The notes under the pieces: generated by a model
The model's input: the letters and a program-made list of their open reading frames with translations, nothing else
The model's database searches: none
Told to the model about the DNA's origin: nothing
Position numbers and translations under genes: made by a program
Assembly: GCF_002234675.1 (NCBI RefSeq)
Contig: NC_019872.2
Coordinates: forward strand, 12,459,950 to 12,523,949
DNA from: Oryzias latipes
Taxonomy: Eukaryota; Chordata; Actinopteri; Beloniformes; Adrianichthyidae
Direction: 5' to 3'
Length of the DNA stretch: 64,000 bases
Part shown: positions 1 to 55,560 of the stretch, piece by piece
Numbering within the stretch: position 1 is the first letter of the stretch
Layout of the letters: each line of letters starts with the position of its first letter

Positions 1-3000
1 CTCTCTTGGGTCAGTTTTTCTCTGAGTTTATCAAGATCTCTTCTCTCCATGTCAAACATATTTGTCTTTTCTGTTTCCACTCCATCCCTCTCTTTGATCA
101 CATCTGACATAGCATTCTTTAGGGCTTCCTTTTGAATTTGGAAGTCCTCTCTGTAAAGAGACATGTTTCGTTTCAGTTCTTCAATGGATTTGACCGTTTC
201 CTCCAAGTCAGAGCCTAATTGAATTGTTTGCTCCATTTTGTTTTTTAATATGGCCATCTTTTGTTTGAAGTCCCCAGAGATGGTCTTTCTGAGGTCCTGA
301 ATTTTGGATTCACTGTTTTCTAATGAATTCATTCGGTCCAGGAGTTGTTGTTCTCTTACTTTCAACTCAGATTTTTTACTTTCAATTCTATCCTTTTCCG
401 TTTGACTCCTTTCTCTCTCATTTTCTACGGCTACCCTCATTTGATTGACTTCTTCCTTTTCACGAAGAAGGTCCATCATGGCAGCGTCAACCTCTTCTTT
501 CATTTTGTTGGTCCTGTCATTCACAGCATTGAGCTCTTCTCTTTCTGTCTGAACCTGTTTCAGTCTGATTTCAAGTTCTTCTGCTTGTCTTTGGATTTCT
601 TCCTCCTTGCTGGCTCTTTCGGATTGTTGTGTGATGACTGAGTCCAAGACAACGTCAAGTCTTTTTCTTTGGGAGTCAACATGTACCTTGAGTTGCTGAA
701 GTTCTAATGTCTCTCTTTGCATGTCCTCCATCAAAGTGTTGGCAGCTTCAGTCTTCCGCTGAAGCTCAATGTTTGCATTATCCATCTTGTCCTTTTCCGT
801 CGTCAAATCATTCTCGGCTTGCTTCATGACTTCCCCAAGTTTCTTGCTTTCAGACTTCATGTGTTCCAAGTACAATTTTTCTTCCTTCATTGCGTTGATT
901 GCTCTGTCCAGATCTTGTCTCTCTTGGGTCAGTTCTTCTCTGAGTTTATCAAGATCTCTTCTCTCCATGTCAAACATATTTGTCTTTTCTGTTTCCACTC
1001 CATCCCTCTGTTTGATCACATCTGACATAGCATTCTTTAGGGCTTCCTTTTGAATTTGGAAGTCCTCACTGTAAAGAGTCATGTTTTGCTTCAGTTCTTC
1101 AATGGATTTGACCGTTTCCTCCAAGTCAGAGCCTAATTGAATTGTTTGCTCCATTTTGTTTTTTAATATGGCCATCTTTTCTTTGAAGTCCCCAGAGATG
1201 GTCTTACTGAGGTCCTGAATTTTGGATTCACTGTTTTCTAATGACTTCATTCGGTCCAGGAGTTGTTGTTCTCTTACTTTCAACTCAGATTTTTCACTTT
1301 CAATTCTATCCTTTTCAGTTTGAGTCCTTTGTCTCTCATTTTCTATGGCTACCCTCATTTGATTGACTTCTTCCTTTTCACGAAGAAGGTCCATCATGGC
1401 AGCGTCAACCTTTTCTTTCATTTTGTTGGTCCTGTCATTCACAGCATTGAGCTCTTCTCTTTCTGTCTGAACCTGTTTCAGTCTGATTTCAAGTTCTTCT
1501 GCTTGTCTTTGGATTTCTTCTTCTTTGTTGGCTCTTTCGGATTGTTGTGTGACGACTGAGTCCAAGACAACGTCAAGTCTTTTTCTTTGGGAGTCAACAT
1601 GTACCTTGAGTTGCTGAAGTTCTAATCTCTCTCTTTGCATGTCCTCCATCAACGTGTTGGCAGCTTCAGTCTTCCTCTGAAGCTCAATGTTTGCATTATC
1701 CATCTTGTCCTTTTCCGTCGTCAAATCATTCTCGGCTAGCTTCATGACTTCCCCAAGTTTCTTGCTTTCAGACTTCATGTGTTCCAAGTACAATTTTTCT
1801 TCCTTCATTGCGTTGATTGCTCTGTCCAGATCTTGTCTCTCTTGGGTCAGTTCTTCTCTGAGTTTATCAAGATCTCTTCTCTCCATGTTAAACATATTTG
1901 TCTTTTCTGTTTCCATTCCATCCCTCTCTTTGATCACATCTGACATAGCATTCTTTAGGGCTTCCTTTTGAATTTGGAAGTCCTCTCTGTAAAGAGACAT
2001 GTTTCGTTTCAGTTCTTCAATGGATTTGACCGTTTCCTCTAAGTCAGAGCCTAATTGAATTGTTTGCTCCATTTTGTTTTTTAATATGGCCATCTTTTCT
2101 TTGAAGTCCCCAGAGATGGTCTTTCTGAGGTCCTGAATTTTGGATTCACTGTTTTCTAATGAATACATTCGGTCCAGGAGTTGTTGTTCTCTTACTTTCA
2201 ACTCAGATTTTTTACTTTCAATTCTATCCTTTTCCGTTTGACTCCTTTCTCTCTCATTTTCTACGGCTACCCTCATTTGATTGACTTCTTCCTTTTCACG
2301 AAGAAGGTCCATCATGGCAGCGTCAACCTCATCTTTCATTTTGTTGGTCCTGTCATTCACAGCATTGAGCTCTTCTCTTTCTGTCTGAACCTGTTTCAGT
2401 CTGATTTCAAGTTCTTCTGCTTGTCTTTGGATTTCTTCTTCTTTGCTGGCTCTTTCGGATTGTTGTGTGACGACTGAGTCCAAGACAACGTCAAGTCTTT
2501 TTCTTTGGGAGTCAACATGTACCTTGAGTTGCTGAAGTTCTAATCTCTCTCTTTGCATGTCCTCCATCAACGTGTTGGCAGCTTCAGTCTTCCTCTGAAG
2601 CTCAATGTTTGCATTATCCATCTTGTCCTTTTCCGTCGTCAAATCATTCTCGGCTAGCTTCATGACTTCCCCAAGTTTCTTGCTTTCAGACTTCATGTGT
2701 TCCAAGTACAATTTTTCTTCCTTCATTGCGTTGATTGCTCTGTCCAGATCTTGTCTCTCTTGGGTCAGTTCTTCTCTGAGTTTATCAAGATCTCTTCTCT
2801 CCATGTCAAACATATTTGTCTTTTCTGTTTCCACTCCATCCCTCTCTTTGATCACATCTGACATAGCATTCTTTAGGGCTTCCTTTTGAATTTGGAAGTC
2901 CTCTCTGTAAAGAGATATGTTTCGTTTCAGTTCTTCAATGGATTTGACCGTTTCCTCCAAGTCAGAGCCTAATTGAATTGTTTGCTCCATTTTGTTTTTT

Positions 3001-6000
3001 AATATGGCCATCTTTTGTTTGAAGTCCCCAGAGATGGTCTTTCTGAGGTCCTGAATTTTGGATTCACTGTTTTCTAATGAATTCATTCGGTCCAGGAGTT
3101 GTTGTTCTCTTACTTTCAACTCAGATTTTTTACTTTCAATTCTATCCTTTTCCGTTTGACTCCTTTCTCTCTCATTTTCTACGGCTACCCTCATTTGATT
3201 GACTTCTTCCTTTTCACGAAGAAGGTCCATCATGGCAGCGTCAACCTCTTCTTTCATTTTGTTGGTCCTGTCATTCACAGCATTGAGCTCTTCTCTTTCT
3301 GTCTGAACCTGTTTCAGTCTGATTTCAAGTTCTTCTGCTTGTCTTTGGATTTCTTCCTCCTTGCTGGCTCTTTCGGATTGTTGTGTGATGACTGAGTCCA
3401 AGACAACGTCAAGTCTTTTTCTTTGGGAGTCAACATGTACCTTGAGTTGCTGAAGTTCTAATCTCTCTCTTTGCATGTCCTCCATCAAAGTGTTGGCAGC
3501 TTCAGTCTTCCGCTGAAGCTCAATGTTTGCATTATCCATCTTGTCCTTTTCCGTCGTCAAATCATTCTCGGCTTGCTTCATGACTTCCCCAAGTTTCTTG
3601 CTTTCAGACTTCATGTGTTCCAAGTACAATTTTTCTTCCTTCATTGCGTTGATTGCTCTGTCCAGATCTTGTCTCTCTTGGGTCAGTTCTTCTCTGAGTT
3701 TATCAAGATCTCTTCTCTCCATGTCAAACATATTTGTCTTTTCTGTTTCCACTCCATCCCTCTGTTTGATCACATCTGACATAGCATTCTTTAGGGCTTC
3801 CTTTTGAATTTGGAAGTCCTCACTGTAAAGAGTCATGTTTTGCTTCAGTTCTTCAATGGATTTGACCGTTTCGTCCAAGTCAGAGCCTAATTGAATTGTT
3901 TGCTCCATTTTGTTTTTTAATATGGCCATCTTTTGTTTGAAGTCCCCAGAGATGGTCTTACTGAGGTCCTGAATTTTGGATTCACTGTTTTCTAATGACT
4001 TCATTCGGTCCAGGAGTTGTTGTTCTCTTACTTTCAACTCAGATTTTTCACTTTCAATTCTATCCTTTTCAGTTTGAGTCCTTTGTCTCTCATTTTCTAT
4101 GGCTACCCTCATTTGATTGACTTCTTCCTTTTCACGAAGAAGGTCCATCATGGCAGCGTCAACCTCTTCTTTCATTTTGTTGGTCCTGTCATTCACAGCA
4201 TTGAGCTCTTCTCTTTCTGTCTGAACCTGTTTCAGTCTGATTTCAAGTTCTTCTGCTTGTCTTTGGATTTCTTCTTCCTTGCTGGCTCTTTCGGATTGTT
4301 GTGTGACGACTGAGTCCAAGACAACGTCAAGTCTTTTTCTTTGGGAGTCAACATGTACCTTGAGTTGCTGAAGTTCTAATCTCTCTCTTTGCATGTCCTC
4401 CATCAACGTGTTGGCAGCTTCAGTCTTCCGCTGAAGCTCAATGTTTGCATTATCCATCTTGTCCTTTTCCGTCGTCAAATCATTCTCGGCTAGCTTCATG
4501 ACTTCCCCAAGTTTCTTGCTTTCAGACTTCATGTGTTCCAAGTACAATTTTTCTTCCTTCATTGCGTTGATTGCTCTGTCCAGATCTTGTCTCTCTTGGG
4601 TCAGTTCTTCTCTGAGTTTATCAAGATCTCTTCTCTCCATGTCAAACATATTTGTCTTTTCTGTTTCCACTCCATCCCTCTGTTTGATCACATCTGACAT
4701 AGCATTCTTTAGGGCTTCCTTTTGAATTTGGAAGTCCTCACTGTAAAGAGTCATGTTTTGCTTCAGTTCTTCAATGGATTTGACCGTTTCGTCCAAGTCA
4801 GAGCCTAATTGAATTGTTTGCTCCATTTTGTTTTTTAATATGGCCATCTTTTGTTTGAAGTCCCCAGAGATGGTCTTTCTGAGGTCCTGAATTTTGGATT
4901 CACTGTTTTCTAATGAATTCATTCGGTCCAGGAGTTGTTGTTCTCTTACTTTCAACTCAGATTTTTTACTTTCAATTCTATCCTTTTCCGTTTGACTCCT
5001 TTCTCTCTCATTTTCTACGGCTACCCTCATTTGATTGACTTCTTCCTTTTCACGAAGAAGGTCCATCATGGCAGCGTCAACCTCTTCTTTCATTTTGTTG
5101 GTCCTGTCATTCACAGCATTGAGCTCTTCTCTTTCTGTCTGAACCTGTTTCAGTCTGATTTCAAGTTCTTCTGCTTGTCTTTGGATTTCTTCTTCCTTGC
5201 TGGCTCTTTCGGATTGTTGTGTGACGACTGAGTCCAAGACAACGTCAAGTCTTTTTCTTTGGGAGTCAACATGTACCTTGAGTTGCTGAAGTTCTAATCT
5301 CTCTCTTTGCATGTCCTCCATCAACGTGTTGGCAGCTTCAGTCTTCCGCTGAAGCTCAATGTTTGCATTATCCATCTTGTCCTTTTCCGTCGTCAAATCA
5401 TTCTCGGCTAGCTTCATGACTTCCCCAAGTTTCTTGCTTTCAGACTTCATGTGTTCCAAGTACAATTTTTCTTCCTTCATTGCGTTGATTGCTCTGTCCA
5501 GATCTTGTCTCTCTTGGGTCAGTTCTTCTCTGAGTTTATCAAGATCTCTTCTCTCCATGTCAAACATATTTGTCTTTTCTGTTTCCACTCCATCCCTCTG
5601 TTTGATCACATCTGACATAGCATTCTTTAGGGCTTCCTTTTGAATTTGGAAGTCCTCACTGTAAAGAGTCATGTTTTGCTTCAGTTCTTCAATGGATTTG
5701 ACCGTTTCCTCCAAGTCAGAGCCTAATTGAATTGTTTGCTCCATTTTGTTTTTTAATATGGCCATCTTTTGTTTGAAGTCCCCAGAGATGGTCTTTCTGA
5801 GGTCCTGAATTTTGGATTCACTGTTTTCTAATGACTTCATTCGGTCCAGGAGTTGTTGTTCTCTTACTTTCAACTCAGATTTTTCACTTTCAATTCTATC
5901 CTTTTCCGTTTGACTCCTTTCTCTCTCATTTTCTATGGCTACCCTCATTTGATTGACTTCTTCCTTTTCACGAAGAAGGTCCATCATGGCAGCGTCAACC

Positions 6001-9000
6001 TCTTCTTTCATTTTGTTGGTCCTGTCATTCACAGCATTGAGCTCTTCTCTTTCTGTCTGAACCTGTTTCAGTCTGATTTCAAGTTCTTCTGCTTGTCTTT
6101 GGATTTCTTCTTCCTTGCTGGCTCTTTCGGATTGTTGTGTGACGACTGAGTCCAAGACAACGTCAAGTCTTTTTCTTTGGGAGTCAACATGTACCTTGAG
6201 TTGCTGAAGTTCTAATCTCTCTCTTTGCATGTCCTCCATCAACGTGTTGGCAGCTTCAGTCTTCCGCTGAAGCTCAATGTTTGCATTATCCATCTTGTCC
6301 TTTTCCGTCGTCAAATCATTCTCGGCTAGCTTCATGACTTCCCCAAGTTTCTTGCTTTCAGACTTCATGTGTTCCAAGTACAATTTTTCTTCCTTCATTG
6401 CGTTGATTGCTCTGTCCAGATCTTGTCTCTCTTGGGTCAGTTCTTCTCTGAGTTTATCAAGATCTCTTCTCTCCATGTCAAACATATTTGTCTTTTCTGT
6501 TTCCACTCCATCCCTCTGTTTGATCACATCTGACATAGCATTCTTTAGGGCTTCCTTTTGAATTTGGAAGTCCTCTCTGTAAAGAGACATGTTTCGTTTC
6601 AGTTCTTCAATGGATTTGACCGTTTCGTCCAAGTCAGAGCCTAATTGAATTGTTTGCTCCATTTTGTTTTTTAATATGGCCATCTTTTGTTTGAAGTCCC
6701 CAGAGATGGTCTTTCTGAGGTCCTGAATTTTGGATTCACTGTTTTCTAATGAATTCATTCGGTCCAGGAGTTGTTGTTCTCTTACTTTCAACTCAGATTT
6801 TTACTTTCAATTCTATCCTTTTCAGTTTGAGTCCTTTCTCTCTCATTTTCTATGGCTACCCTCATTTGATTGACTTCTTCCTTTTCACGAAGAAGGTCCA
6901 TCATGGCAGCGTCAACCTCTTCTTTCATTTTGTTGGTCCTGTCATTCACAGCATTGAGCTCTTCTCTTTCTGTCTGAACCTGTTTCAGTCTGATTTCAAG
7001 TTCTTCTGCTTGTCTTTGGATTTCTTCTTCCTTGCTGGCTCTTTCGGATTGTTGTGTGACGACTGAGTCCAAGACAACGTCAAGTCTTTTTCTTTGGGAG
7101 TCAACATGTACCTTGAGTTGCTGAAGTTCTAATCTCTCTCTTTGCATGTCCTCCATCAAAGTGTTGGCAGCTTCAGTCTTCCGCTGAAGCTCAATGTTTG
7201 CATTATCCATCTTGTCCTTTTCCGTCGTCAAATCATTCTCGGCTAGCTTCATGACTTCCCCAAGTTTCTTGCTTTCAGACTTCATGTGTTCCAAGTACAA
7301 TTTTTCTTCCTTCATTGCGTTGATTGCTCTGTCCAGATCTTGTCTCTCTTGGGTCAGTTCTTCTCTGAGTTTATCAAGATCTCTTCTCTCCATGTCAAAC
7401 ATATTTGTCTTTTCTGTTTCCACTCCATCCCTCTGTTTGATCACATCTGACATAGCATTCTTTAGGGCTTCCTTTTGAATTTGGAAGTCCTCACTGTAAA
7501 GAGTCATGTTTTGCTTCAGTTCTTCAATGGATTTGACCGTTTCCTCCAAGTCAGAGCCTAATTGAATTGTTTGCTCCATTTTGTTTTTTAATATGGCCAT
7601 CTTTTGTTTGAAGTCCCCAGAGATGGTCTTTCTGAGGTCCTGAATTTTGGATTCACTGTTTTCTAATGAATACATTCGGTCCAGGAGTTGTTGTTCTCTT
7701 ACTTTCAACTCAGATTTTTTACTTTCAATTCTATCCTTTTCCGTTTGACTCCTTTCTCTCTCATTTTCTACGGCTACCCTCATTTGATTGACTTCTTCCT
7801 TTTCACGAAGAAGGTCCATCATGGCAGCGTCAACCTCTTCTTTCATTTTGTTGGTCCTGTCATTCACAGCATTGAGCTCTTCTCTTTCTGTCTGAACCTG
7901 TTTCAGTCTGATTTCAAGTTCTTCTGCTTGTCTTTGGATTTCTTCCTCCTTGCTGGCTCTTTCGGATTGTTGTGTGAGACTGAGTCCAAGACAACGTCAA
8001 GTCTTTTTCTTTGGGAGTCAACATGTACCTTGAGTTGCTGAAGTTCTAATCTCTCTCTTTGCATGTCCTCCATCAAAGTGTTGGCAGCTTCAGTCTTCCG
8101 CTGAAGCTCAATGTTTGCATTATCCATCTTGTCCTTTTCCGTCGTCAAATCATTCTCGGCTAGCTTCATGACTTCCCCAAGTTTCTTGCTTTCAGACTTC
8201 ATGTGTTCCAAGTACAATTTTTCTTCCTTCATTGCGTTGATTGCTCTGTCCAGATCTTGTCTCTCTTGGGTCAGTTCTTCTCTGAGTTTATCAAGATCTC
8301 TTCTCTCCATGTCAAACATATTTGTCTTTTCTGTTTCCACTCCATCCCTCTGTTTGATCACATCTGACATAGCATTCTTTAGGGCTTCCTTTTGAATTTG
8401 GAAGTCCTCTCTGTAAAGAGACATGTTTCGTTTCAGTTCTTCAATGGATTTGACCGTTTCTCCAAGTCAGAGCCTAATTGAATTGTTTGCTCCATTTTGT
8501 TTTTTAATATGGCCATCTTTTGTTTGAAGTCCCCAGAGATGGTCTTTCTGAGGTCCTGAATTTTGGATTCACTGTTTTCTAATGAATTCATTCGGTCCAG
8601 GAGTTGTTGTTCTCTTACTTTCAACTCAGATTTTTACTTTCAATTCTATCCTTTTCAGTTTGACTCCTTTCTCTCTCATTTTCTATGGCTACCCTCATTT
8701 GATTGACTTCTTCCTTTTCACGAAGAAGGTCCATCATGGCAGCGTCAACCTCTTCTTTCATTTTGTTGGTCCTGTCATTCACAGCATTGAGCTCTTCTCT
8801 TTCTGTCTGAACCTGTTTCAGTCTGATTTCAAGTTCTTCTGCTTGTCTTTGGATTTCTTCCTCCTTGCTGGCTCTTTCGGATTGTTGTGTGATGACTGAG
8901 TCCAAGACAACGTCAAGTCTTTTTCTTTGGGAGTCAACATGTACCTTGAGTTGCTGAAGTTCTAATCTCTCTCTTTGCATGTCCTCCATCAAAGTGTTGG

Positions 9001-12000: not shown

Positions 12001-15000
12001 TCTGTTTGATCAATCTGACATAGCATTCTTTAGGGCTTCCTTTGAATTTGGAAGTCCTCACTGTAAAGAGTCATGTTTTGTTTCAGTTCTTCAATGGATT
12101 TGACCGTTTCTCCAAGTCAGAGCCTAATTGAATTGTTTGCTCCATTTTGTTTTTTAATATGGCCATCTTTTGTTTGAAGTCCCCAGAGATGGTCTTTCTG
12201 AGGTCCTGAATTTTGGATTCACTGTTTTCTAATGAATTCATTCGGTCCAGGAGTTGTTGTTCTCTTACTTTCAACTCAGATTTTTTCACTTTCAATTCTA
12301 TCCTTTTCAGTTTGAGTCCTTTGTCTCTCATTTTCTATGGCTACCCTCATTTGATTGACTTCTTCCTTTTCACGAAGAAGGTCCATCATGCAGCGTCAAC
12401 CTCTTCTTTCATTTTGTTGGTCCTGTCATTCACAGCATGAGCTCTTCTCTTTCTGTCTGAACCTGTTTCAGTCTGATTTCAAGTTCTTCTGCTTGTCTTT
12501 GGATTTCTTCTCCTTGCTGGCTCTTTCGGATTTTTGTGTGACGACTGAGTCCAAGACAACGTCAAGTCTTTTTCTTTGGAGTCAACATGTACCTTGAGTT
12601 TGCTGAAGTTCTAATCTCTCTCTTTGCATGTCCTCCATCAAGTGTTGGCGCTTCAGTCTTCCGCTGAAGCTCAATGTTTGCATTATCCATCTTGTCCTTT
12701 TCCGTCGTCAAATCATTCTCGGCTAGCTTCATGACTTCCCCAAGTTTCTTGCTTTCAGACTTCATGTGTTCCAAGTACAATTTTTTTCCTTCATTGCGTT
12801 GATTGCTCTGTCCAGATCTTGTCTCTCTTGGGTCAGTTCTTCTCTGAGTTTATCAAGATCTCTTCTCTCCATGTCAAACATATTTGTCTTTTCTGTTTCC
12901 ACTCCATCCCTCTGTTTGATCACATCTGACATAGCATTCTTTAGGGCTTCCTTTTGAATTTGGAAGTCCTCACTGTAAAGAGTCATGTTTGTTCAGTTCT
13001 TCAATGGATTTGACCGTTTCTCCAAGTCAGAGCCTAATTGAATTGTTTGCTCCATTTTGTTTTTTAATATGGCCATCTTTTGTTTGAAGTCCCCAGAGAT
13101 GGTCTTCTGAGGTCCTGAATTTTGGATTCACTGTTTTCTAATGAATTCATTCGGTCCAGGAGTTGTTGTTCTCTTACTTTCAACTCAGATTTTTTACTTT
13201 CAATTCTATCCTTTTCGTTTGATCCTTTCTCTCTCATTTTCTAGGCTACCCTCATTTGATTGACTTCTTCCTTTTCACGAAGAAGGTCCATCATGGCAGC
13301 GTNNNNNNNNNNNNNNNNNNNNNNNNNNNNNNNNNNNNNNNNNNNNNNNNNNNNNNNNNNNNNNNNNNNNNNNNNNNNNNNNNNNNNNNNNNNNNNNNNN
13401 NNNNNNNNNNNNNNNNNNNNNNNNNNNNNNNNNNNNNNNNNNNNNNNNNNNNNNNNNNNNNNNNNNNNNNNNNNNNNNNNNNNNNNNNNNNNNNNNNNNN
13501 NNNNNNNNNNNNNNNNNNNNNNNNNNNNNNNNNNNNNNNNNNNNNNNNNNNNNNNNNNNNNNNNNNNNNNNNNNNNNNNNNNNNNNNNNNNNNNNNNNNN
13601 NNNNNNNNNNNNNNNNNNNNNNNNNNNNNNNNNNNNNNNNNNNNNNNNNNNNNNNNNNNNNNNNNNNNNNNNNNNNNNNNNNNNNNNNNNNNNNNNNNNN
13701 NNNNNNNNNNNNNNNNNNNNNNNNNNNNNNNNNNNNNNNNNNNNNNNNNNNNNNNNNNNNNNNNNNNNNNNNNNNNNNNNNNNNNNNNNNNNNNNNNNNN
13801 NNNNNNNNNNNNNNNNNNNNNNNNNNNNNNNNNNNNNNNNNNNNNNNNNNNNNNNNNNNNNNNNNNNNNNNNNNNNNNNNNNNNNNNNNNNNNNNNNNNN
13901 NNNNNNNNNNNNNNNNNNNNNNNNNNNNNNNNNNNNNNNNNNNNNNNNNNNNNNNNNNNNNNNNNNNNNNNNNNNNNNNNNNNNNNNNNNNNNNNNNNNN
14001 NNNNNNNNNNNNNNNNNNNNNNNNNNNNNNNNNNNNNNNNNNNNNNNNNNNNNNNNNNNNNNNNNNNNNNNNNNNNNNNNNNNNNNNNNNNNNNNNNNNN
14101 NNNNNNNNNNNNNNNNNNNNNNNNNNNNNNNNNNNNNNNNNNNNNNNNNNNNNNNNNNNNNNNNNNNNNNNNNNNNNNNNNNNNNNNNNNNNNNNNNNNN
14201 NNNNNNNNNNNNNNNNNNNNNNNNNNNNNNNNNNNNNNNNNNNNNNNNNNNNNNNNNNNNNNNNNNNNNNNNNNNNNNNNNNNNNNNNNNNNNNNNNNNN
14301 NNTCAAGTCTTTTTCTTTGGGAGTCAACATGTACCTTGAGTTGCTGAAGTTCTAATCTCTCTCTTTGCATGTCCTCCATCAAAGTGTTGGCAGCTTCAGT
14401 CTTCCGCTGAAGCTCAATGTTTGCATTATCCATCTTGTCCTTTTCCGTCGTCAAATCATTCTCGGCTAGCTTCATGACTTCCCCAAGTTTCTTGCTTTCA
14501 GACTTCATGTGTTCCAAGTACAATTTTTCTTCCTTCATTGCGTTGATTGCTCTGTCCAGATCTTGTCTCTCTTGGGTCAGTTCTTCTCTGAGTTTATCAA
14601 GATCTCTTCTCTCCATGTCAAACATATTTGTCTTTTCTGTTTCCACTCCATCCCTCTGTTTGATCACATCTGACATAGCATTCTTTAGGGCTTCCTTTTG
14701 AATTTGGAAGTCCTCACTGTAAAGAGTCATGTTTTGCTTCAGTTCTTCAATGGATTTGACCGTTTCTCCAAGTCAGAGCCTAATTGAATTGTTTGCTCCA
14801 TTTTGTTTTTTAATATGGCCATCTTTTGTTTGAAGTCCCCAGAGATGGTCTTTCTGAGGTCCTGAATTTTGGATTCACTGTTTTCTAATGAATACATTCG
14901 GTCCAGGAGTTGTTGTTCTCTTACTTTCAACTCAGATTTTTTACTTTCAATTCTATCCTTTTCCGTTTGACTCCTTTCTCTCTCATTTTCTACGGCTACC

Positions 15001-18000
15001 CTCATTTGATTGACTTCTTCCTTTTCACGAAGAAGGTCCATCATGGCAGCGTCAACCTCTTCTTTCATTTTGTTGGTCCTGTCATTCACAGCATTGAGCT
15101 CTTCTCTTTCTGTCTGAACCTGTTTCAGTCTGATTTCAAGTTCTTCTGCTTGTCTTTGGATTTCTTCTCCTTGCTGGCTCTTTCGGATTGTTGTGTGACG
15201 ACTGAGTCCAAGACAACGTCAAGTCTTTTTCTTTGGGAGTCAACATGTACCTTGAGTTGCTGAAGTTCTAATCTCTCTCTTTGCATGTCCTCCATCAACG
15301 TGTTGGCAGCTTCAGTCTTCCGCTGAAGCTCAATGTTTGCATTATCCATCTTGTCCTTTTCCGTCGTCAAATCATTCTCGGCTAGCTTCATGACTTCCCC
15401 AAGTTTCTTGCTTTCAGACTTCATGTGTTCCAAGTACAATTTTTCTTCCTTCATTGCGTTGATTGCTCTGTCCAGATCTTGTCTCTCTTGGGTCAGTTCT
15501 TCTCTGAGTTTATCAAGATCTCTTCTCTCCATGTCAAACATATTTGTCTTTTCTGTTTCCACTCCATCCCTCTGTTTGATCACATCTGACATAGCATTCT
15601 TTAGGGCTTCCTTTTGAATTTGGAAGTCCTCACTGTAAAGAGTCATGTTTTGCTTCAGTTCTTCAATGGATTTGACCGTTTCGTCCAAGTCAGAGCCTAA
15701 TTGAATTGTTTGCTCCATTTTGTTTTTTAATATGGCCATCTTTTGTTTGAAGTCCCCAGAGATGGTCTTTCTGAGGTCCTGAATTTTGGATTCACTGTTT
15801 TCTAATGAATTCATTCGGTCCAGGAGTTGTTGTTCTCTTACTTTCAACTCAGATTTTTTACTTTCAATTCTATCCTTTTCAGTTTGACTCCTTTCTCTCT
15901 CATTTTCTACGGCTACCCTCATTTGATTGACTTCTTCCTTTTCACGAAGAAGGTCCATCATGGCAGCGTCAACCTCTTCTTTCATTTTGTTGGTCCTGTC
16001 ATTCACAGCATTGAGCTCTTCTCTTTCTGTCTGAACCTGTTTCAGTCTGATTTCAAGTTCTTCTGCTTGTCTTTGGATTTCTTCTTCCTTGCTGGCTCTT
16101 TCGGATTGTTGTGTGACGACTGAGTCCAAGACAACGTCAAGTCTTTTTCTTTGGGAGTCAACATGTACCTTGAGTTGCTGAAGTTCTAATCTCTCTCTTT
16201 GCATGTCCTCCATCAACGTGTTGGCAGCTTCAGTCTTCCGCTGAAGCTCAATGTTTGCATTATCCATCTTGTCCTTTTCCGTCGTCAAATCATTCTCGGC
16301 TAGCTTCATGACTTCCCCAAGTTTCTTGCTTTCAGACTTCATGTGTTCCAAGTACAATTTTTCTTCCTTCATTGCGTTGATTGCTCTGTCCAGATCTTGT
16401 CTCTCTTGGGTCAGTTCTTCTCTGAGTTTATCAAGATCTCTTCTCTCCATGTCAAACATATTTGTCTTTTCTGTTTCCACTCCATCCCTCTGTTTGATCA
16501 CATCTGACATAGCATTCTTTAGGGCTTCCTTTTGAATTTGGAAGTCCTCACTGTAAAGAGTCATGTTTTGCTTCAGTTCTTCAATGGATTTGACCGTTTC
16601 CTCCAAGTCAGAGCCTAATTGAATTGTTTGCTCCATTTTGTTTTTTAATATGGCCATCTTTTGTTTGAAGTCCCCAGAGATGGTCTTTCTGAGGTCCTGA
16701 ATTTTGGATTCACTGTTTTCTAATGAATACATTCGGTCCAGGAGTTGTTGTTCTCTTACTTTCATCTCAGATTTTTTACTTTCAATTCTATCCTTTTCCG
16801 TTTGACTCCTTTCTCTCTCATTTTCTACGGCTACCCTCATTTGATTGACTTCTTCCTTTTCACGAAGAAGGTCCATCATGGCAGCGTCAACCTCTTCTTT
16901 CATTTTGTTGGTCCTGTCATTCACAGCATTGAGCTCTTCTCTTTCTGTCTGAACCTGTTTCAGTCTGATTTCAAGTTCTTCTGCTTGTCTTTGGATTTCT
17001 TCCTCCTTGCTGGCTCTTTCGGATTGTTGTGTGATGACTGAGTCCAAGACAACGTCAAGTCTTTTTCTTTGGGAGTCAACATGTACCTTGAGTTGCTGAA
17101 GTTCTAATCTCTCTCTTTGCATGTCCTCCATCAAAGTGTTGGCAGCTTCAGTCTTCCGCTGAAGCTCAATGTTTGCATTATCCATCTTGTCCTTTTCCGT
17201 CGTCAAATCATTCTCGGCTAGCTTCATGACTTCCCCAAGTTTCTTGCTTTCAGACTTCATGTGTTCCAAGTACAATTTTTCTTCCTTCATTGCGTTGATT
17301 GCTCTGTCCAGATCTTGTCTCTCTTGGGTCAGTTCTTCTCTGAGTTTATCAAGATCTCTTCTCTCCATGTCAAACATATTTGTCTTTTCTGTTTCCACTC
17401 CATCCCTCTGTTTGATCACATCTGACATAGCATTCTTTAGGGCTTCCTTTTGAATTTGGAAGTCCTCTCTGTAAAGAGACATGTTTCGTTTCAGTTCTTC
17501 AATGGATTTGACCGTTTCGTCCAAGTCAGAGCATAATTGAATTGTTTGCTCCATTTTGTTTTTTAATATGGCCATCTTTTGTTTGAAGTCCCCAGAGATG
17601 GTCTTTCTGAGGTCCTGAATTTTGGATTCACTGTTTTCTAATGAATTCATTCGGTCCAGGAGTTGTTGTTCTCTTACTTTCAACTCAGATTTTTTACTTT
17701 CAATTCTATCCTTTTCAGTTTGACTCCTTTCTCTCTCATTTTCTATGGCTACCCTCATTTGATTGACTTCTTCCTTTTCACGAAGAAGGTCCATCATGGC
17801 AGCGTCAACCTCTTCTTTCATTTTGTTGGTCCTGTCATTCACAGCATTGAGCTCTTCTCTTTCTGTCTGAACCTGTTTCAGTCTGATTTCAAGTTCTTCT
17901 GCTTGTCTTTGGATTTCTTCCTCCTTGCTGGCTCTTTCGGATTGTTGTGTGATGACTGAGTCCAAGACAACGTCAAGTCTTTTTCTTTGGGAGTCAACAT

Positions 18001-31385: not shown

Positions 31386-34300
31386 TCCAAGACATTGTTA
31401 AGCCGTGAACTAAATAATTCACTTTCTTCGGACTGATCATGAACATTATTTGCCTTTTGTTTCCCCTTTTCTATTTCTTCTTTATCCTTCCACACCAGTT
31501 TTGTCTCCTCCCCAATGTCATCCATTTTGTCTTGATTCTTTGGCTCATGTAACATTTGTTTTTCCACATTCAGGGTTTCAGTTCCTGGGATCCACATCTT
31601 ACTTTCACTTTTTGTCCCAAAGAACACATCTGACTCTTTTTTTTTCATCAACAGTTTACTCTTGTTGGTTTTGGTTGGTTTCTTTTTGACAACTTTTGTT
31701 TCTTCCTCTCTCTTTTTAATCCCTTCTTGTGACACATTTTCTTCTCTTGCATTTACGTAGTTAATGTTATAACTTTCATCATAACAGTCATCATCCACTT
31801 TTTTAAAGTTTACGTTTTGAGTAGTTTCCTGTATTTTTATTGCTTTAACGTTTTTCACTCCACTCTTTTTTTTTTGCCAGTTTTTATCTTGAATTGTAAT
31901 ATTTTGTGTTTCTTTCCCTTTTAGGGCTCTTTTACAGGCAATAATAGGTTCTTCAGTTTGGTGTATTACACTGCTCTCTTGTTCCTGTTGATCAATTTTA
32001 ACCGTTGTTTTCCAAAGTTCTTCTAGTTCAGTAGAAGTCTCTTTTTTGCCTTGTCTTTTGGGCACACCTTTTGATTTTTTCGTCATTTTCTTTTCTGTCG
32101 TAACACTACTTTCGTCTTTTCTTCTGATTTTATCTTGTTGTAAAAACCTTTGCCCTTCCTGAATCCTTTTAACTGCACTCTGTATTACCTCTCTTTGCCT
32201 TTTAATTTCTATTTGGATTTTACTTGTTTCTTTTCTGGAATTTGTGATCATATCTGCATGTACACTAATTTGTTGTTTGACATCCATAATTGTCCGAATA
32301 AGACCTTCACAGTCTGTCTTTATGTTACCACATTTCTTTGTACACATTTGGAGTAAAGTCCAGTGGTTCTGGATGTCTCCTAGAACTTGTGAAACACCTG
32401 TCGTCCCCAAATCAATCATCCCACTTGTGAACACTTCCTCTTCTTTTTTAAACCTGAGCTTCATTACCTCTAGTTCATCTCTCTCTCTGATAATTCTCTC
32501 TAGTCTCTGATCAAGTTCTTTCTTTCTTCTTTGCGTTTCTCTTTTGAGAGCATCTTTTTCTTCTCTGACTTCATTCCACATTCTTTTAACATCTTGTTCT
32601 TTCTGGATGCTCTTTCGAACAATTCGTTGATTTTCTTTTTTCTTAATTTCCAAATCCGTCATCAGCAACTCTAATTCTTGTCTTTCTCTTCTAACTTTTT
32701 CTAGAGCAACATCAAGCTCTAGTTTTTGGGCGTCATTTTTCTTGTGAATCATTTCAACCATTTCTTCTCCTTTCTCTTGGATCATTTTATTAAAGACTGT
32801 CTTTATTTGAGCTTTAACTCTTATCACTTCATCTTTTAACCTAAGGTTCTCACCTTGAAAGATTTTTAGTCCATCTTTTTGTTGGTCTAAACACACTACG
32901 AGACTTTCCAGAGTGTTTTTGTCTCCCATGATTTTTGCCAAATGATCATGGATCTTTTGTTTAATCCTTTCAAGGTTTTTGATGGAACCAGCAATTTCTA
33001 TGCTTAGGTGTTGTTTTCCAATTTCCTCTTTAAGGCTTTTCTTATCTGTTGTTTCCAAACTTTCTTTTTGATCTTCACTGCACACATCCAGGTCGGCAGT
33101 TTTGTCTTTGACATGTAGCTGCTGAGCAACCAGCTCTTCCTTTAGTCGATTCATCTTCAAGCGGACCACTTCCAATGCATCTCTCTCCCTGATGATTTTC
33201 TCTAGCCTTTGGTTTACTTCTCTTTTTTTCTTCCTAGTCTCTCTTCTTAATGACATCTTTTCCTGTTTTACTTGATATAGGATTATTTCATTTTGCTCTC
33301 CTTGTCTCACAAGTTTTCTGAGTATTTGTTCATTTTCTTTCCTCTTTATTTGCAACTCTGACTTTAAGATCTCCATTTCCTGAACTTCTCTTCTTATCCG
33401 TTGGAAGTGGTCATTGAGTTCCTGTTCTTTTACTTCGATTTGTTTTTTCATTTTATGAACCTCTTCGCCAAGCGGTTCTGGTGAAACTCTTCCACCTAAA
33501 AGTTCTGCTTGGATCTGTGTAAGCCTTTTAGATATTTCTTTTCTTCCATCTATCATTTCTTTCTCAATGTTGAACTCGCTTAACTCTTTGATTTTAGTTC
33601 TAATCATTTCAAGCTCAGACATGCATTTTGTTTTTAAAAGACAAATTCTTTCCACGTTTTGCTGTTGAGTGGCTTCCGTTGTTGTGTTCGTTTGTTCCAG
33701 CAGTTTCAATTTTATTTCTGTCTTCTTCATCCTCACTTTTATTTCTTCATTTTTTTCTCTGGACTTTGCAATCATTTTTGTCATGGAGCTCCAACATTTT
33801 GTCATTTTCTCTGCGTTCTTCTGAGTTTCTATGGTCTCTCTCTGGACTTTAATTTTCAAGATTTCTAATTCATCTCTTTGCCTTAAAATTTGCTCTAGCT
33901 TGTGATCCAGTACTCTTCTTCTCTTTTCCACTGCAAATGTCATGCTCTTTGTATCTCTTTTGATACACAATTTTCCATGTTGTATTGCTGTTTTTACCGT
34001 TTGCAAAAGCTCTTGGAACTGTTTCATTTTGTGCACTACTCTTTCACTTTCACCATTTTCATTTTTAAATTGTTGATTTGTGTTTGTTTCTCTAACTTGG
34101 TACCCTATTTCTAAAAGAAACACTTTGATGACTTCTATGGTTTGGTGAATTTCCAAGTCCAGCCTTTGTACTGCTGCATCTTTAGGGATGTTTTCTTCAG
34201 AAACTTCATGTCTGTCTTCAAACATCATCTGCAGATCTACTTGTAAATCCTGATTTTGCATTTGTTTTTCATCTCCAACTTTCATCCAATACGACTCTTG

Positions 34301-37300
34301 ACTTGATTCAGTACTTTCCCCTACTTCAAGCTGCTTCATTGGTTCTCTGGAAGTACTTTTCCCCACTATTTCTCCGCCCTGTATTTCAGTCAGCACTTTG
34401 ATTGCTTTATTGTGACTTAATGTGTCTGGATCGTGACACTGGAGCTCATTTATTTCTGTGATGAGCTTTGTCATCTTTTGACTCTTTTCCTTGACATTTT
34501 GTATATCATCATACATTTTAACTTTGATGTCAAATTCTTGCCCCTTAAGCTCAGACATCTGTTTTTCCAAATTGATCTTCTCTGATGAATCTATCAAAAA
34601 TTTTGCCTCATCTTTTTCTGGTATTGTTTGGTCCTGGATTGGTGCCTCCATCAGAGGGTGCTGGGGTTCAAAACTTTCTTTAACTTTATTTTGAGCTTCC
34701 ACCATTGCAAAAGGCTGCAGGAATGTTATTGCTTTTACTTTGCTTATGTGTTCTGGAGATCCTGTTTTAAGATTTGGTTTTGCTTCTTTCTGATGCTCTT
34801 CAGGTTCACAAGTATCACCTGGAAAAATCTTACCAACTGAAGACTTTTTCATTTTCCATGAGTTGACTCGATCTTTCATGGAGGCCAAAGTCTCCTTCAC
34901 AAAGAAAAATATTTTGTTACTATTAATTGATACAAAAAGTACAATCATGATTTCTGAGACCTATCCCTTTACTTGTTTTCTAGCTGTCCCTGACCTGCTA
35001 AGTACTGAAAGACTGAGCACACCTAATCAATTATCAGAAGCTGAAATAGTCTGATCCAGGTAATCAACAATGAATGGGGCAGGAATAATTAAAACATTTG
35101 TATTGGATTCTGACTCAAATATTAGATTTTGCCAGTTTCTTTTTCTGTAGCAGACCCCATTTCTATAGGGCCCTTCCATTGCACTTCTGATGGAGCCTCT
35201 CTGACTGATGCAGATTGGATAGAAGCATCTGATGTCATGACAATGTGCAAAACCATTGTTTTTTGCAAATAGAGATCAACAATCAAATATCTAAATGTGA
35301 TTAAAATAGGACAAGATTCAAATTGAACTACTAACACAACATTTTTTAGAATCACCTAGCTTGAGATTTTGCTTTTTCATGCAAGTGTTATCCAATATTG
35401 CATATTAAGCTTAAAGCCTTAGTCACAACTGCCCTCACAGGTAGATACAGGTTGTCTATGGGTGAAAAATGGACAAAACTGTACGGGGGACGCAGGTGGC
35501 CTGCAAAAAATATCATGGTCATAGGCCGCTCGGTAAAGTTGTTGAACAAAAATGTTCATGGAAACTTTTTTCTATACGGGCATGCCCCGGGGGATAGGTC
35601 GAAGTGACTTATATATAAATGTAACCAAACTAAACAATTAGAATGTAGTTTGTGTGGGTATCCTATAGGCATCCTATAGGCACTTATGTGTCACCTGCAT
35701 ATCCTGGGAGCGTAGCATTTGTGCACGGTCATTAAAGGTAAAGTACTCACACTTTACTAATGACCAGAGTATGGCCTATGGGCACGTACGACAGAATCAC
35801 CGGTATGTCATAAATGTACACAATTTACATTATCCTTACAAATACTTCACAAAACACTTACCACATGCATTACAATCATATGTTTCATTTTCATGACGTC
35901 CCTTAAAGTGGCCACACGAGCCTTAAGGGAACTGCAAGACACACCTGCGCTCCCCCTGAACATGCTCCTGTTCACGAAAATCCAGAAAATTTCAAAAACT
36001 CACAGCTCTTATACGGGTCAACTCCCTGTATGAGTGCATGTGACTAAGGCTTTACCTGCCATTGGCAGGCATGTTAGGAGACACAGATAAGTAAAAGCAA
36101 TCAGTCAGAAACAGGCTGCTGAGATTTCTTGGAGTGGGCCCTTTGATCTTATGAAGCTACGGACACACCAGACAAGTGACGTGCATGTAGCCCACGGTGT
36201 TCCCTCTGGACGATCGGGATGGGACTCTTTTTTCTTCTTTTTCTACTGTTTACTTGCGCATGTTTGACTTGTTGAAGAGACTTGGTGCAAAATTTCAAAA
36301 TGGTGCAAATATTGTGAATCTTGCTCCAGGTTTTTTTATTTCAAAGCTCTATTCCTATATATGAAAGACTTGGTGTCATTTAAATCCAGCCGGCCACAAA
36401 CTGCATTTAATAATTTCTCCTCCATGACCAATTTTCAAACATTGAATTAAAATGGACGCCATCTATATGTCAAAATCTCACTACCAAATCCATGTCCCTT
36501 ACCGGTCAAAGTTCACCCTGGTTTAGCTTGCAGCGTGTTGAATGGACACACGTTTTGTATGTAGAGCCTGAAAACGGTCGTGAAAACCTGCGTAGCTTTG
36601 CGTGAAAGCAAGAGTTTTTAACCCGGTAACACAAAACATGCATTTACACACGTTTATATTGACTTTTCATTGTAAGTGGCCCCTTGAACTAATGTGGCCA
36701 AGGCCGGTGTGAACGTAACTTAATAGTACCGATAGTTAAGCCCATTTTAGCCTCAACTCATTAAGCACAACAAGGATTAGTCTGATTACTGCTGATTTTA
36801 CAACTATACTTTATAAAGTATTGAGAAAAACAAAAACTCTTACCAGGTTTTTCCTTAGTTCTTTGCTGTAATCTGCTGTACTTGATTTGATTTTGAGGAC
36901 ATCCTCCATGATGCTTCTGATTTCTTCATATGCATTTTCCATGTTAGTCTTCACTTTGGCCACAGTAAGGATTGAAGCCATTACATCTTGTTTTTGCCTT
37001 TCAACGTCTTGTTTTTGTTGCTGTATTTGCATCTTTATGATTTCTAACTCGTCTCTCTGTCTTACTGTCTTCTCAAGCCGACAGTCGAGCTCTCGTCTCC
37101 TCTTCTTTGCATGTAAATCAACCCATTTCATTTGTTTGGATTTACATTGTTCACAAACGTAAATCGGCTGCGGCAGACATTCCTCTGTCTTGGTTGATCC
37201 TTCCTCTGTGTCTTGCACAGTTCCATCAGTCTTAATGGATGTGTCTTCCTTTCTCTTCCTGTTACTTTTCATCATCTTTTCAAGATTATTTTTCTTTATT

Positions 37301-40289
37301 TGGACTTCTCTGTTCACCACTTCCATCTCTCTGATTTCTCTCTTTACTCTTTGTAACTTGTTATCTAACTCTTCCATTTCACCTTCAATACTCTTTCGCG
37401 TACACTTCAATGCATTCATTTCTGTATCGATCAGTTTCCTGTCTCTCTCTATGTCCAGTCTTTCTGCTTGCATTTCAATTTTGATTGTTTCAATCTGAGT
37501 TTTTTCAAATTTGACTTGTGTTGAATATTCTTTCAGTTCATTGAAAGCATTTTGCATGATTTCCTGGATTTGGCCAAGTTGAACTTCCAAATGGTCAAAC
37601 ACTGATGTTCCATCTGATAGTTTCTCTCTGCTTTGCAATTCTGCTTGCTTTAAGATGTTTTTAATGTCATTGATTATTTCAGTCATTCGTCGCTTTTCCT
37701 CATCCATGGTTTCTTGTTTGGGGTGTGTTGCAGTTGGAGCTTGTGCCTCATCTAAAAGTTGTTCATTTTCCATCATCATGTTGTTCTGTTGATTTTGTTC
37801 TGTTGAACAAAGAGAAACAGTAATGTAAAAAATAAAAAGCATTTTAAAAAATCCAAACAACAGTAAACTAGACATAGTTTAAATTAGAATCAATAAAAGC
37901 AATTTTATGTTTTGTTAAACTGGTATATGCACTGTATTTACATGTTTGTTCAACAATATAAAAAAGAACAAATTGACAACAATAAAGATTAATTTATTGT
38001 TAATACTTGTATTTTGAATCTAAAAACGACGCAAATAAAATTATTTAGTTTCTACTTTAACACTAGAGACACGAAAAATAAAAATTAAAATACCAGTAGT
38101 TAAAATGGTAGTTAAAAAACTCTGGGTATTTGTTTTGAATGCAAAATTTTAATAAATATGAGTTAAATCCAAACGTAGAAACATTTGCTTTTTTCTTTGC
38201 TGAAAAATCAAATCAGGGATGAGCAGTTTTTTTTCTGTGTGCTGCAGTTCTTCTAAGGTGTTGCTTTTAACAAATGTATTTTTGCAAAAAAAATGTTAAT
38301 TGTTATATCTATAGTTTTGACTATAAACCAAATGGTTATAAATGATAAATTAACCCCAGCCGGGTTGGCTGGGTGTAATTTTAGATATGTGTAAATGTTT
38401 TTTTTGTCTGTTTTACATGTTAAACTGTGGTACATAATGTTCACCAACAGAGGGCGCTGCCTCCAAATGTAAGAAGACAGGTTTCAAAGACAGGTTTAAA
38501 ACCTGTACATAGCCAAGACCAAGAAGCAACGTTTTGAATAAATTAATAACAAAAGCTAGACGAATTTTAAAGTTCATATTGAAAATGTGTTTTTTAAGTT
38601 GTAGTTTTTTAAATCTTTAGCTAGTAAAACAAGTATTTGGTTATTTGAAAAAAAACATTTTTCTGTCATTTGTTTAAAAGAAGGAATTATTGTTTCACAG
38701 AAATTGACCTCTTGAACACATAAATACCACAGTTTTTTAAGTTTTTATAAGTACTTTTTAAACAAAATAACTGTTCATAGTACAACATGTAAATATGTTG
38801 CTGTTGTTTTTGTATTATTTGCTGTTATGTGGTAATAAACAGGATTGGAAATCTGAGGGTTGCCAAAATAACATATAATGGAAACAATTTGTCTGTAGAA
38901 GGTTTTAGGCATAAAAAACCACAACATTTTAAATACAACAATATAAATATGGATAATACTCAGTTAAAAAACAGTCACTTCCTGACCTCTGTAATCAACA
39001 AAAGACAGCAAAGCAAGAGAGGTTGAAATACTTTACAAAAAATACTGTATATGAATTTTAAATATAATTATAAAAAATATCACATTTGTATGGATAATTT
39101 GTGGAATTTTGCAAGCATTGATCAAAAACAAATGGATTTTCTATATTTTAACTTACCAATGATTGACAGCTGAAAAATTTGTGGTTTTGTTCAGCATACG
39201 TGCATTTATTCATAAAAATGTTTTTATTTGCTCGGCTCTTGAACTATTTTTAGTTATGGAATTTTTGTTTTCTCATTTATTTTGCAACTCTGTTTAATCC
39301 TCACTCCATTAAGTTCTCTAAATTGTGTGCAGTAGATTCTTTTCACTTCAATCTTACATTTTCATTTTTGAGAGAACAAATATATCTTGGGCTTTAACTC
39401 CAAATCCTTCATCTTTGAAAAATCCACAACAATGATTGTGCATTTAAAAAAGGTAAAATACAGCATTTATAGGTCACTAAAGCTGTTTAATCTTACAATA
39501 TGATAAACATTTAAAACATGATAAAGACTATAATTTTTAGTTATTACATCAAGGTGATGCAAAAAACTATTTACTACCTGAAAGGGAACAAATACAGCTG
39601 CCCTTTTATCAGCCTCATAAATTAGCTAACTGTGCATGGAAATATACTGAAAGAAAAGCATAAATCTGTGTCCAATATTATAACCAAAGTAAAATGACTT
39701 GAAAGAAATTTTTGTAAAATTTGTAAAATCTTGATGTATTTTCAGGTTTGCTGAAGTTGAAGCACACACATCCTCTTTTAATTATGATTATTTACTTCAA
39801 TAGGTTTTGAACAATAATCACCAAAAGAAAATATAGATTTTCTCTACATTGTGAATTCATCTGTTTTGTGATGATCCATAATGTTTAATAGAAATAGCAT
39901 AGAATGTAGGTCAGATATGGCTTACCTCCTTCAAAGGCAGGTCCCGGATTTAAAAATATCTGGTTAAGAGCTTCCCTGGATTGTGATGATCCTCCTTCTA
40001 CAGCATGAAGCAGAACCCTCACTTGGTCCTGTGGTGTCAGTGAGTTCCAGGTCCCCATGAGGGCTCCAGGATTCCTCAGTCCAGACACCATCTGCACTCT
40101 GATCTCCTCCAGGAAGCTTTTCACTGCAAAGAAGCTTTGAGATCACTCAAACTGTGCTGCAGAAGTCTACGGCCTCTCTTGAGATTTTTCTTTTTTTAAT
40201 ATATGTAAATACGGTTGAAACAGACTCGTGCGATTGTTTCTGAGAACCAAACTGAATGTAGACTCACCATGGGCTTCTGATTTCGTCAT
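1..40289 (-). CDS. Giant repetitive coiled-coil protein, five-exon gene, 3' end beyond window
   Basis: Gene-level entry; coding segments are 40289-40268, 40123-39926, 37799-36844 and 34894 to beyond position 1. Every junction has a GT donor and AG acceptor and the phases agree: phase 1, phase 1, then phase 0. The protein has a 73-residue N-terminus, then a charged heptad-rich region to about residue 1,560, then near-identical 306-residue repeats up to the window edge. About 11,690 codons are visible outside the N gap. Composition is dominated by Glu, Lys, Gln, Arg and Leu, as in long alpha-helical coiled coils. No signal peptide, membrane segment or catalytic motif is visible, so a cytoplasmic or cytoskeletal scaffold is inferred. 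I do not recognise the family. Automatic annotation would probably name it trichohyalin-like, golgin-like or interaptin-like from composition alone. It is divergent from cblb. Frameshifts near the gap are probably assembly errors. Confidence 0.82.
6788..15170 (-). other. Frame-broken stretch of the array, probable consensus errors
   Basis: Compared with intact units, this stretch has many single-base indels, nearly all deletions and many in homopolymers. Examples are near 6800 (T run), 7976, 8460, 8634, 9376, 9775, 10048, 10746, 11051, 12012, 12391, 12437 and 13105, and a lost base near 15166 that ends the long open frame. Indels are rare before 8000, dense at 9500-13300 beside the gap, and absent to the right of 15170. 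Substitution-level identity to intact units stays high. This pattern fits unpolished long-read sequence at a contig end. True pseudogenisation is less likely but not excluded. Confidence 0.8.
13303..14302. other. Assembly gap of exactly 1000 N inside the tandem array
   Basis: There are 1000 consecutive N, a round number typical of a gap of unknown size. By comparison with intact units, the sequence should resume 167 bases later within the unit, so the true missing length should be close to 167 + 918n (167, 1085, 2003 and so on) and not 1000. The number of repeats in the gene is therefore uncertain. Confidence 0.97.
31386..34894 (-). CDS. Exon 5, unique part before the tandem array
   Basis: The acceptor atttttctttgtgaag precedes 34894, and the phase (0) fits the end of exon 4, giving KELRKNL joined to ETLASMKDRV. 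This part encodes about residues 393-1,562. It is Lys/Glu/Gln-rich, with coiled-coil blocks separated by a more polar stretch (about residues 1,300-1,550) containing many Lys, Thr and Asp. A degenerate module appears at about residues 717-745, 899-975 and 1,133-1,212. Its signature is an IKKKEN-like segment followed by KKELDQRLERIIRERDELE. The frame is open without interruption and leads straight into the first tandem repeat. Confidence 0.85.
35412..36054. mobile_element. MITE-like element with 15-bp terminal inverted repeats
   Basis: TAAAGCCTTAGTCAC at 35412-35426 is perfectly matched by its reverse complement at 36040-36054, bounding a 643-bp block. The outermost TA on each side may be a TA target-site duplication, which would fit a Tc1/mariner-like or PIF-like non-autonomous element. 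There is no transposase reading frame inside. The interior is more GC-rich than the surrounding intron (for example the segment around 35490-35600). Confidence 0.7.
36154..36722. mobile_element. Interspersed repeat, same family as the one at 63450-64000
   Basis: The left end GAAGCTACGGACACACC and the reverse complement of the right end, TAAGTTACGTTCACACC, match at 13 of 17 positions, suggesting inverted ends. The interior shares colinear segments with 63650-63790, for example CTCTATTCCTATA here and CTCTGTTCCTATA there, followed by a similar GTCAT...ATCC...CCGG...CACAAAC pattern. It has no coding capacity. It is probably a non-autonomous DNA transposon; boundaries are approximate. Confidence 0.55.
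36844..37799 (-). CDS. Exon 4 of the giant gene, charged coiled-coil region
   Basis: A very good acceptor (a pyrimidine tract ending gttcaacag) precedes 37799, and the donor GTAAGA follows 36844. The exon is 956 nt and completes a split Glu codon (residue 74), then encodes residues 75-392, ending KELRKNL. It is strongly helical and charged with heptad-like spacing. A CEQC motif lies near residues 289-292, followed by a module RRRELDCRLEK...RQRDELEIIK (about 306-329) that recurs in exon 5. The reading frame is also open upstream of the acceptor with a signal-peptide-like start at 37875, but that part has the character of an intron pyrimidine tract and is excluded. Confidence 0.78.
37800..39925 (-). 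other. Intron 3 of the giant gene
   Basis: This 2,126-nt intron runs from the donor GTAAGC at 39925 to the acceptor ending at 37800. It is very AT-rich with many short A and T runs. No gene, RNA or clear repeat was recognised. Confidence 0.7.
39926..40123 (-). CDS. Exon 3 of the giant gene, short globular-looking N-terminal segment
   Basis: The exon lies between the acceptor ttctttgcag (before 40123) and the donor GTAAGC (after 39926). It is 198 nt long, enters at phase 1 and leaves at phase 1. It encodes residues 8-73, beginning VKSFLEEIRVQ and ending NPGPAFEG. Unlike the rest of the protein this stretch has Gly, Pro and Trp and mixed hydrophobic residues (for example GTWNSLTPQDQVRVLLHAVE), so it may be a small helical domain rather than coiled coil. 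I do not recognise the domain. Confidence 0.7.
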
Positions 40290-45171: not shown

Positions 45172-45342
45172 GACATGGCAGCTGCCCTCAGCGGCCGAAA
45201 CCCTGGCGGACGTGGGCCTAACAAAAGCAAGGGTCGCATTTTAGGCATCTTTGATGCAATCCAGGATGCAGTGGGGCCACCGAAGCAGGCTGCTGCCGAT
45301 CGGAAAACCGTGGAGAAAACCTGGAAACTCATGGATAAAGTT
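45172..45342 (+). CDS. cblb: cblb first coding exon
   Basis: The acceptor (atctttag) precedes 45172, three bases before the ATG at 45175; the donor GTAAGT starts at 45343. The 168 coding bases give 56 residues ending KLMDKV, phase 0. The human protein has its exon junction at the same place, before VRLCQNP. Confidence 0.93.
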
Positions 45343-55100: not shown

Positions 55101-55182
55101 TGTGAAGATATTCAACCTTTGCAGACTCTTATGAATCATAATTACCGGATTTTTTGCTTTTCTTGTATGACTCGGTTTGCTG

Positions 55183-55560
55183 CATGGTGGCTCAGTGGTA
55201 AGCGCTCTAGATACACTGCAAGAAGGCCCCCGGTTCAAGTCCCGGCTGAGGGACCTGAACAGGAACATCAATGGGGGACCTTTCTGTGTGGAGTTTGCAT
55301 GTTCTCCCCGTGCATGCGTAGGTTTTCTCCGGGGACTCTGGCTTCCTCCCATGCTTTATAGGTTAATTGGTTACTCTAAATTGTCCATATGTGTGTGAAT
55401 ATGAGTGTGCATGGGTGTGTGATTGTGGCCCTGCGACAGACTGGCGACCTGTCCAGGATGTCCCCAGCCTTCGCTCGCAAGTGGCCGGAATAGGCTTTGG
55501 CAGCTCCGTGACCCAGGAAGGGACAAAACGGAATAGAAAATGATAATTAGAAGATGAATG
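55183..55560 (+). mobile_element. tRNA-derived SINE
   Basis: The head has polymerase III promoter boxes: an A-box-like TGGCTCAGTGGTAAGCGCTC and a B box GGTTCAAGTCC (55232-55242). The body GTGTGGAGTTTGCATGTTCT, TTAATTGGTTACTCTAAATTG, GACAGACTGGCGACCTGTCC and the tail ending GAAGATGAATG are the familiar body of a very abundant teleost SINE family. The copy is nearly full-length and mildly diverged. Confidence 0.88.

Follow-up and report, generated by a model that had tools for sequence, protein, structure and literature searches.

A window of 64,000 nucleotides from the medaka, Oryzias latipes (the whole stretch of DNA analysed herein), contains a minus-strand reading frame that runs into tens of kilobases, most of them near-identical repeats, and that is broken in the assembly beside a run of N. 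The locus raises the question of whether these repeats belong to one working gene or to the remains of one, and what kind of protein such a gene would specify. We favor, tentatively and with a probability of roughly 0.4, a four-exon fish gene in which about 35 repeat units give rise to a coiled-coil rod of ~12,500 or more residues, likely a membrane-anchored tether. No paper on this gene was found in the open-licence literature.

Exons, array and neighbors

Four exons are predicted for the giant gene, all of them minus-strand, with GT/AG ends and joined in phase. The features, in window coordinates, are as follows.

40289-40268, minus strand: coding part of exon 1 (predicted), MTKSEAH plus the first base of the next codon; GT donor; in phase with exon 2
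40123-39926, minus strand: exon 2, a short head of 66 codons that aligns with the CARD-like head of homologue P0009
37799-36844, minus strand: exon 3, coiled-coil, 318 complete codons, hydrophobic period 3.54
34894-31395, minus strand: exon 4, unique part ahead of the array, ~1,165 codons, an open frame with similarity to fish proteins
31394-15533, minus strand: exon 4, intact part of the array, 17 units of exactly 918 bp (306 aa), no stop
15532-6477, minus strand: array units with single-base deletions (41), flanking the gap
13303-14302, no strand: run of 1,000 N, apparently a contig break whose true size the assembly does not give
6800-1 and on to the TAA, minus strand: array and open frame continuing past the window edge, a 3,077-aa open frame
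45172..46768, plus strand: a neighboring CBL-B gene (its first two coding exons), in head-to-head arrangement with the giant gene and not part of it

A DNA search of its own genome located exon 3 here and nowhere else. The stop-free run from 34960 to 15125 comprises 6,611 codons from stop to stop, in agreement with the long open run that a reading of the sequence alone had reported. At 6800 the frame opens again and crosses the window edge, 3,077 codons in all; with the flanking 40 kb to the left added, it ends in a TAA, at -2433 in window coordinates (C14:12457516). The C-terminus therefore lies outside the window, as that reading had supposed, by 2,433 bases. Exon 4 measures 37,328 bases (1,000 N included), and the coding bases total 37,504, or ~12,500 codons, with the 1-kb N gap inside. 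Within the window alone there are ~11,690 codons, so the earlier figure of more than 11,600 visible residues was sound as arithmetic; its single open exon reaching to the window edge was not, since 41 deletions, 2 insertions, a stop at 15125 and the 1,000 N intervene. As read from the exons, the predicted product has ~12,500 residues or more, about 351 of them unique residues that follow the array at the C-terminal end, and would rank with the largest proteins of vertebrates. To our knowledge, the giant coding exon exceeds the largest exons of titin and MUC16. Rfam and tRNA scans of the locus gave no match.

On the other strand, 46502-46765 matches CBL-B chains (2.6e-46), and the first exon, at 45172, we take to be CBL-B as well. 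The start of this gene lies ~5 kb from the giant gene's start codon and can serve as a synteny marker for finding orthologues. Farther along, 55171-55398 (plus strand) codes for 'GGSVVSALDTLQEGPRFKSRLRD'-like text, presumably a common fish interspersed repeat.

The array begins near 31.4 kb and repeats every 918 bases exactly. Thirty-five unit starts are counted, 33 of them inside the window and two, read by eye, beyond its edge; the final unit is partial. Upstream of the gap, 17 intact units (starts 31138 to 16450) differ from the consensus by 2-14 nucleotides and contain no stop; over the whole window there are 23 intact units, each 2-19 of 918 bases from the consensus and again with no stop. 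They are 98-99.8% like their consensus and ~98-99% alike within the array, and so close an identity among 23 units cannot be due to chance. One seeming stop allele in the variant table is not a stop, since the units contain none.

Selection on the protein had been argued from a frame kept open over about 20 kb of repeats. The frame is indeed open in the intact units, but as stated the argument is weak, since a single open unit, copied almost without change, makes up the array. Their variation amounts to 50 alleles, with 35 nonsynonymous and 14 synonymous against expectations of 36.8 and 10.7, and within the array mean pairwise dN is 0.62 times mean dS. There is slight amino-acid constraint inside the array; codon variation across it is no proof of strong selection.

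Frame breaks beside the run of N

The breaks in the frame might be real, in which case the gene is decaying and makes a protein of ~7,000 residues, or none. As assembled, the 41 single-base deletions and the stop at 15125 speak for this, as does the weak constraint among the units, and what decides the matter is where the deletions fall. Eight full and two partial units between 15532 and 6477 were aligned with the unit consensus, giving the 41 deletions and 2 insertions; the full units, which lie around the 1,000 N, are 910-917 bases long, and the stop at 15125 comes after a one-base deletion. Fifty variable columns were defined among the intact units. Thirty-two of the 41 deletions fall on such a column or in the same-base run with one, where 3.2 were expected (binomial P 7e-28); by the exact-column criterion the count is 27 of 41. 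The mismatches in the broken units are at variable columns without exception (54 of 54). On the low-coordinate side of the gap the deletions thin out with distance, which also tells against decay: the partial unit carries 7 and the successive full units 10, 6, 5, 7, 2, 1 and 1, then none. Above the gap the partial unit (14616-14303) carries none and the next unit two, so that the trend with distance exists on one side only; this undamaged partial unit, together with the 9 of 41 deletions away from variable columns, fits decay better. Finally, the frame that reopens for 3,077 codons ends in the conserved tail of the family described below, a further point against decay.

Because the deletions concentrate on the positions at which intact units differ, we read the breaks as an artefact: they look like consensus errors beside a contig break. 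Such deletions would result if the consensus caller skipped a base wherever the reads of the several copies conflict, and mutation would not favor those columns. Real decay as the cause of the breaks is rejected on these grounds, and a decaying gene appears very improbable. Homopolymer errors fit poorly too, for 35 of the 41 deletions are in runs of one or two bases. Deletions at sites that vary between copies, as seen in 15532-6477, may more generally mark consensus errors in the tandem-repeat genes of long-read assemblies.

The medaka assembly paper (PMC5705604) describes 1-kb gaps placed between neighboring contigs, counts 491 gaps in the Hd-rR assembly, and considers inter-contig gaps likely longer than fosmids (median 37.5 kb). 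Given such inserted gaps, the run of N would be a break of unstated true size.

Relatives in other fishes

A protein search with the unique part of exon 4 returned 5 fish proteins out of 7,993 scored candidates. Further protein searches returned 3 of 4,554 and 5 of 4,793, the latter counting the query itself and two already found, and ten homologues (P0001-P0010) are now recognized. Searches of this kind detect only relatives with common short exact words and within a length range, and the family may therefore be wider. Of the ten, the closest is P0001 of Oryzias javanicus, ~60% identical to the unique part over the best stretch; Pempheris, two Scomber proteins and Neolamprologus have 31-34% identity to it, and over the nine other fish proteins together the best stretches range from 29 to 38%. 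The additional homologues are from Thalassophryne (7,427 aa), Xiphias (4,731), Scatophagus (4,070), Epinephelus (2,778) and Xiphophorus (6,357).

The sequence across the exon 3/4 junction is present in 8 of the 10 homologues (pattern search), and this, along with a matching C-terminal tail, supports the proposal of a giant spliced coiled-coil gene. The repeat unit has 298 residues in Thalassophryne, 306 in Xiphias and 303 in Scatophagus; Xiphophorus P0010 (6357 aa) has a higher-order repeat, a 608-aa double unit with a 77% self-match, and no clear array period was found in Epinephelus P0009. An end-to-end alignment of the window unit with the Xiphias unit gives 30% over 306 columns, and the best stretches of the window unit are 24-37% identical in 9 of the 10 homologues, none being reported for the short P0001. 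A homologous unique region, a unit of roughly 300 residues and a Cys-rich C-terminal tail thus place the medaka gene in a family of giant coiled-coil proteins of fishes. That the unique parts, the junction and the tail are conserved between fishes is a stronger argument for a working protein than the array itself.

Units that are ~98-99% alike within the array yet only 24-37% identical to the homologues over the best stretches point to an array homogenised within its lineage, a case of concerted evolution keeping a giant reading frame. The number of units, and with it the length of the rod, would shift easily via unequal crossing-over between near-identical units.

Annotators have labelled P0006-P0010 nesprin-1-like, golgin B1-like, golgin A4-like, trichohyalin-like and uncharacterized LOC102219462. 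Judging from the sequences, the trichohyalin-, golgin- and nesprin-like names are wrong, and under such unrelated names the family escapes study. Papers on turbot blood and on akame name a 'trichohyalin-like' gene; the label is generic, and they were not used.

Predicted rod, tail and head

Hydrophobic residues recur with a period of 3.52 in the unit and 3.54 in exon 3 (0 of 500 shuffles as strong in either case); the unique part of exon 4 has no significant period (66 of 500). An AlphaFold model of the unit (single sequence; mean pLDDT 86, pTM 0.26) consists of two long helices, residues 2-95 and 103-305, interrupted at residues 96-102. The helices and the hydrophobic period together predict a coiled-coil rod of great length, which may be hinged, possibly with one hinge per unit. 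Against Pfam the unit gave FBF1 (0.0085), DUF3450 (0.019) and Fez1 (0.84), all far below their cut-offs and taken as coiled-coil likeness; exons 2 and 3 and the unique part of exon 4 gave no family at E up to 1, and neither the unit nor the unique part had a match in the PDB.

The protein might simply be a bulk structural one, of a cytoskeletal or cornification type, serving as mechanical filler and not as a tether. The trichohyalin-like name given by an annotator and a composition rich in Glu, Lys, Gln and Arg would suit such a role, but Pfam finds no S100/EF-hand family in exons 2 and 3 or the unique part of exon 4, and the conserved features of the tail suggest an anchored, dimerised protein. 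We hold this alternative to be unlikely.

These features lie ~2 kb outside the window. The C-terminal 32 residues hold 7-10 Cys in all six tail-reaching proteins (the giant gene and five homologues); in the giant gene there are 9 Cys in the last 32 residues and none in the 3,045 before. The second feature is DKKVQTE, 238 residues ahead of the C-terminal end, which fits in full the LC8 consensus, [DS]-K-x-[TVI]-Q-[TV]-[DE] near a coiled coil, as given in PMC3078936. Three of the six proteins (the giant gene, Xiphias and Scatophagus) match the full consensus and the other three are one position short, at 238-300 residues from the end, where shuffles lead one to expect 0-0.06 full matches per protein. 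In the alignment DKKVQTE stands opposite the relatives' second QT site, not their DK..QT site, and from their sequences the LC8-type sites may not be the same by descent. The C-terminal 351 residues have no PDB match at E up to 1, and in Pfam DUF5771 alone (E 0.028, below its cut-off).

A golgin-type tether, acting at the Golgi or on vesicles, would share this architecture, a coiled coil with a C-terminal anchor being the golgin plan, and two homologues carry the golgin B1-like and A4-like labels. No GRIP or other golgin family is found in the C-terminal 351 residues or in P0007, P0008 and P0009, however, and a golgin seems to us quite improbable.

At the other end, P0007 and P0009 begin with a short head similar to that of exons 1 and 2. 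The exon 2 head is 44% identical to the head of Epinephelus P0009 and shorter. In Pfam the P0009 head has CARD (PF00619) as its sole match, with an E of 0.00099 and 19.5 bits against a cut-off of 23.9; in the PDB a fish GBP-like protein (4.1e-5) and NLRP1 chains account for the best 8 of its 11 matches, and we take the matched parts to be CARDs. A profile of three heads recovers the same GBP-like and NLRP1 entries as its best 6 of 10 PDB matches (best E 0.0029). A C-terminal CARD is mentioned for zebrafish Gbp4 in PMC4932187. Scanned over its full length, P0009 matched no Pfam family (E up to 0.01). No CARD turned up in the Xiphias head, whose weak Pfam matches were Cmyb_C (0.046) and HTH_psq (0.064). 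The window head likewise gave no CARD by Pfam or PDB search (one PDB match, E 0.96, unrelated), so exon 2 does not appear to be a plain CARD. Neither Foldseek nor VIA-align found a CARD in its AlphaFold model (three sequences, pLDDT 69), a result that is no evidence against one. The window head is shortened and may have lost any recruitment of CARD partners.

These matches raise the possibility of a CARD signalling scaffold of the CARD9/CARD11 type, with CARD assemblies nucleated at the head and arranged by the coiled coil. The Pfam and PDB matches of P0009 and the three-head profile are in its favor; the subthreshold Pfam score and the Xiphias and window heads without a CARD match (the window copy being shorter than that of P0009) weigh against it, the fold search was no help, and we regard it as improbable.

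The sequence-only reading had seen neither a catalytic nor a targeting motif. Searches likewise turned up no catalytic family; the LC8-type motif and the Cys-rich tail, together with a head that is weakly CARD-like in one homologue, qualify the rest, and the filament, spacer or scaffold role that it put forward may apply. Under the membrane-anchored tether that we favor, the Cys-rich end would be S-palmitoylated and sit on a membrane, and DKKVQTE would bind LC8, clamping two chains in parallel. With a helical rise of 0.1485 nm per residue, the rod could reach up to ~1.9 micrometres if helical throughout, holding the N-terminal head outward; in the relative with the CARD-like head, that head might recruit CARD partners. 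A model fish would then provide what may be a molecular tether of micrometre length. A bolder extension, which we consider somewhat unlikely, is that the contig break hides many more units, giving a continuous coiled coil well over 12,500 and perhaps 20,000-25,000 residues long in one coding exon. This would be the longest coiled coil and the largest coding exon among vertebrates, a lipid-anchored, micrometre-scale tether with its reach set by copy number and differing between individuals.

Comparison with known systems

The giant gene resembles P0001-P0010 in its unique region, its repeat unit and, for gene models that extend that far, its C-terminal tail; it differs in that four of the five tail-reaching homologues have 4,070-7,427 residues (Epinephelus 2,778) and less uniform arrays, whereas the medaka has ~35 units. 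CARD9/10/11/14 also place a head before a coiled coil, and the head here is weakly CARD-like in one homologue, but they are small proteins (~500-1,150 aa) without giant arrays. With trichohyalin (S100 fused-type) there is a name given by annotators and charged helical repeats in common, but no S100 domain in exons 2 and 3 or the unique part of exon 4. Nesprin-1 is likewise a giant helical protein with a C-terminal membrane end, as the giant gene's product would have; no spectrin, CH or KASH domain, however, is found in the window parts, the C-terminal 351 residues, P0007, P0008 or P0009. Giantin and the golgins share the long coiled coil and, probably, the C-terminal anchor, whereas the product of the giant gene has no GRIP or other family match and is much larger.
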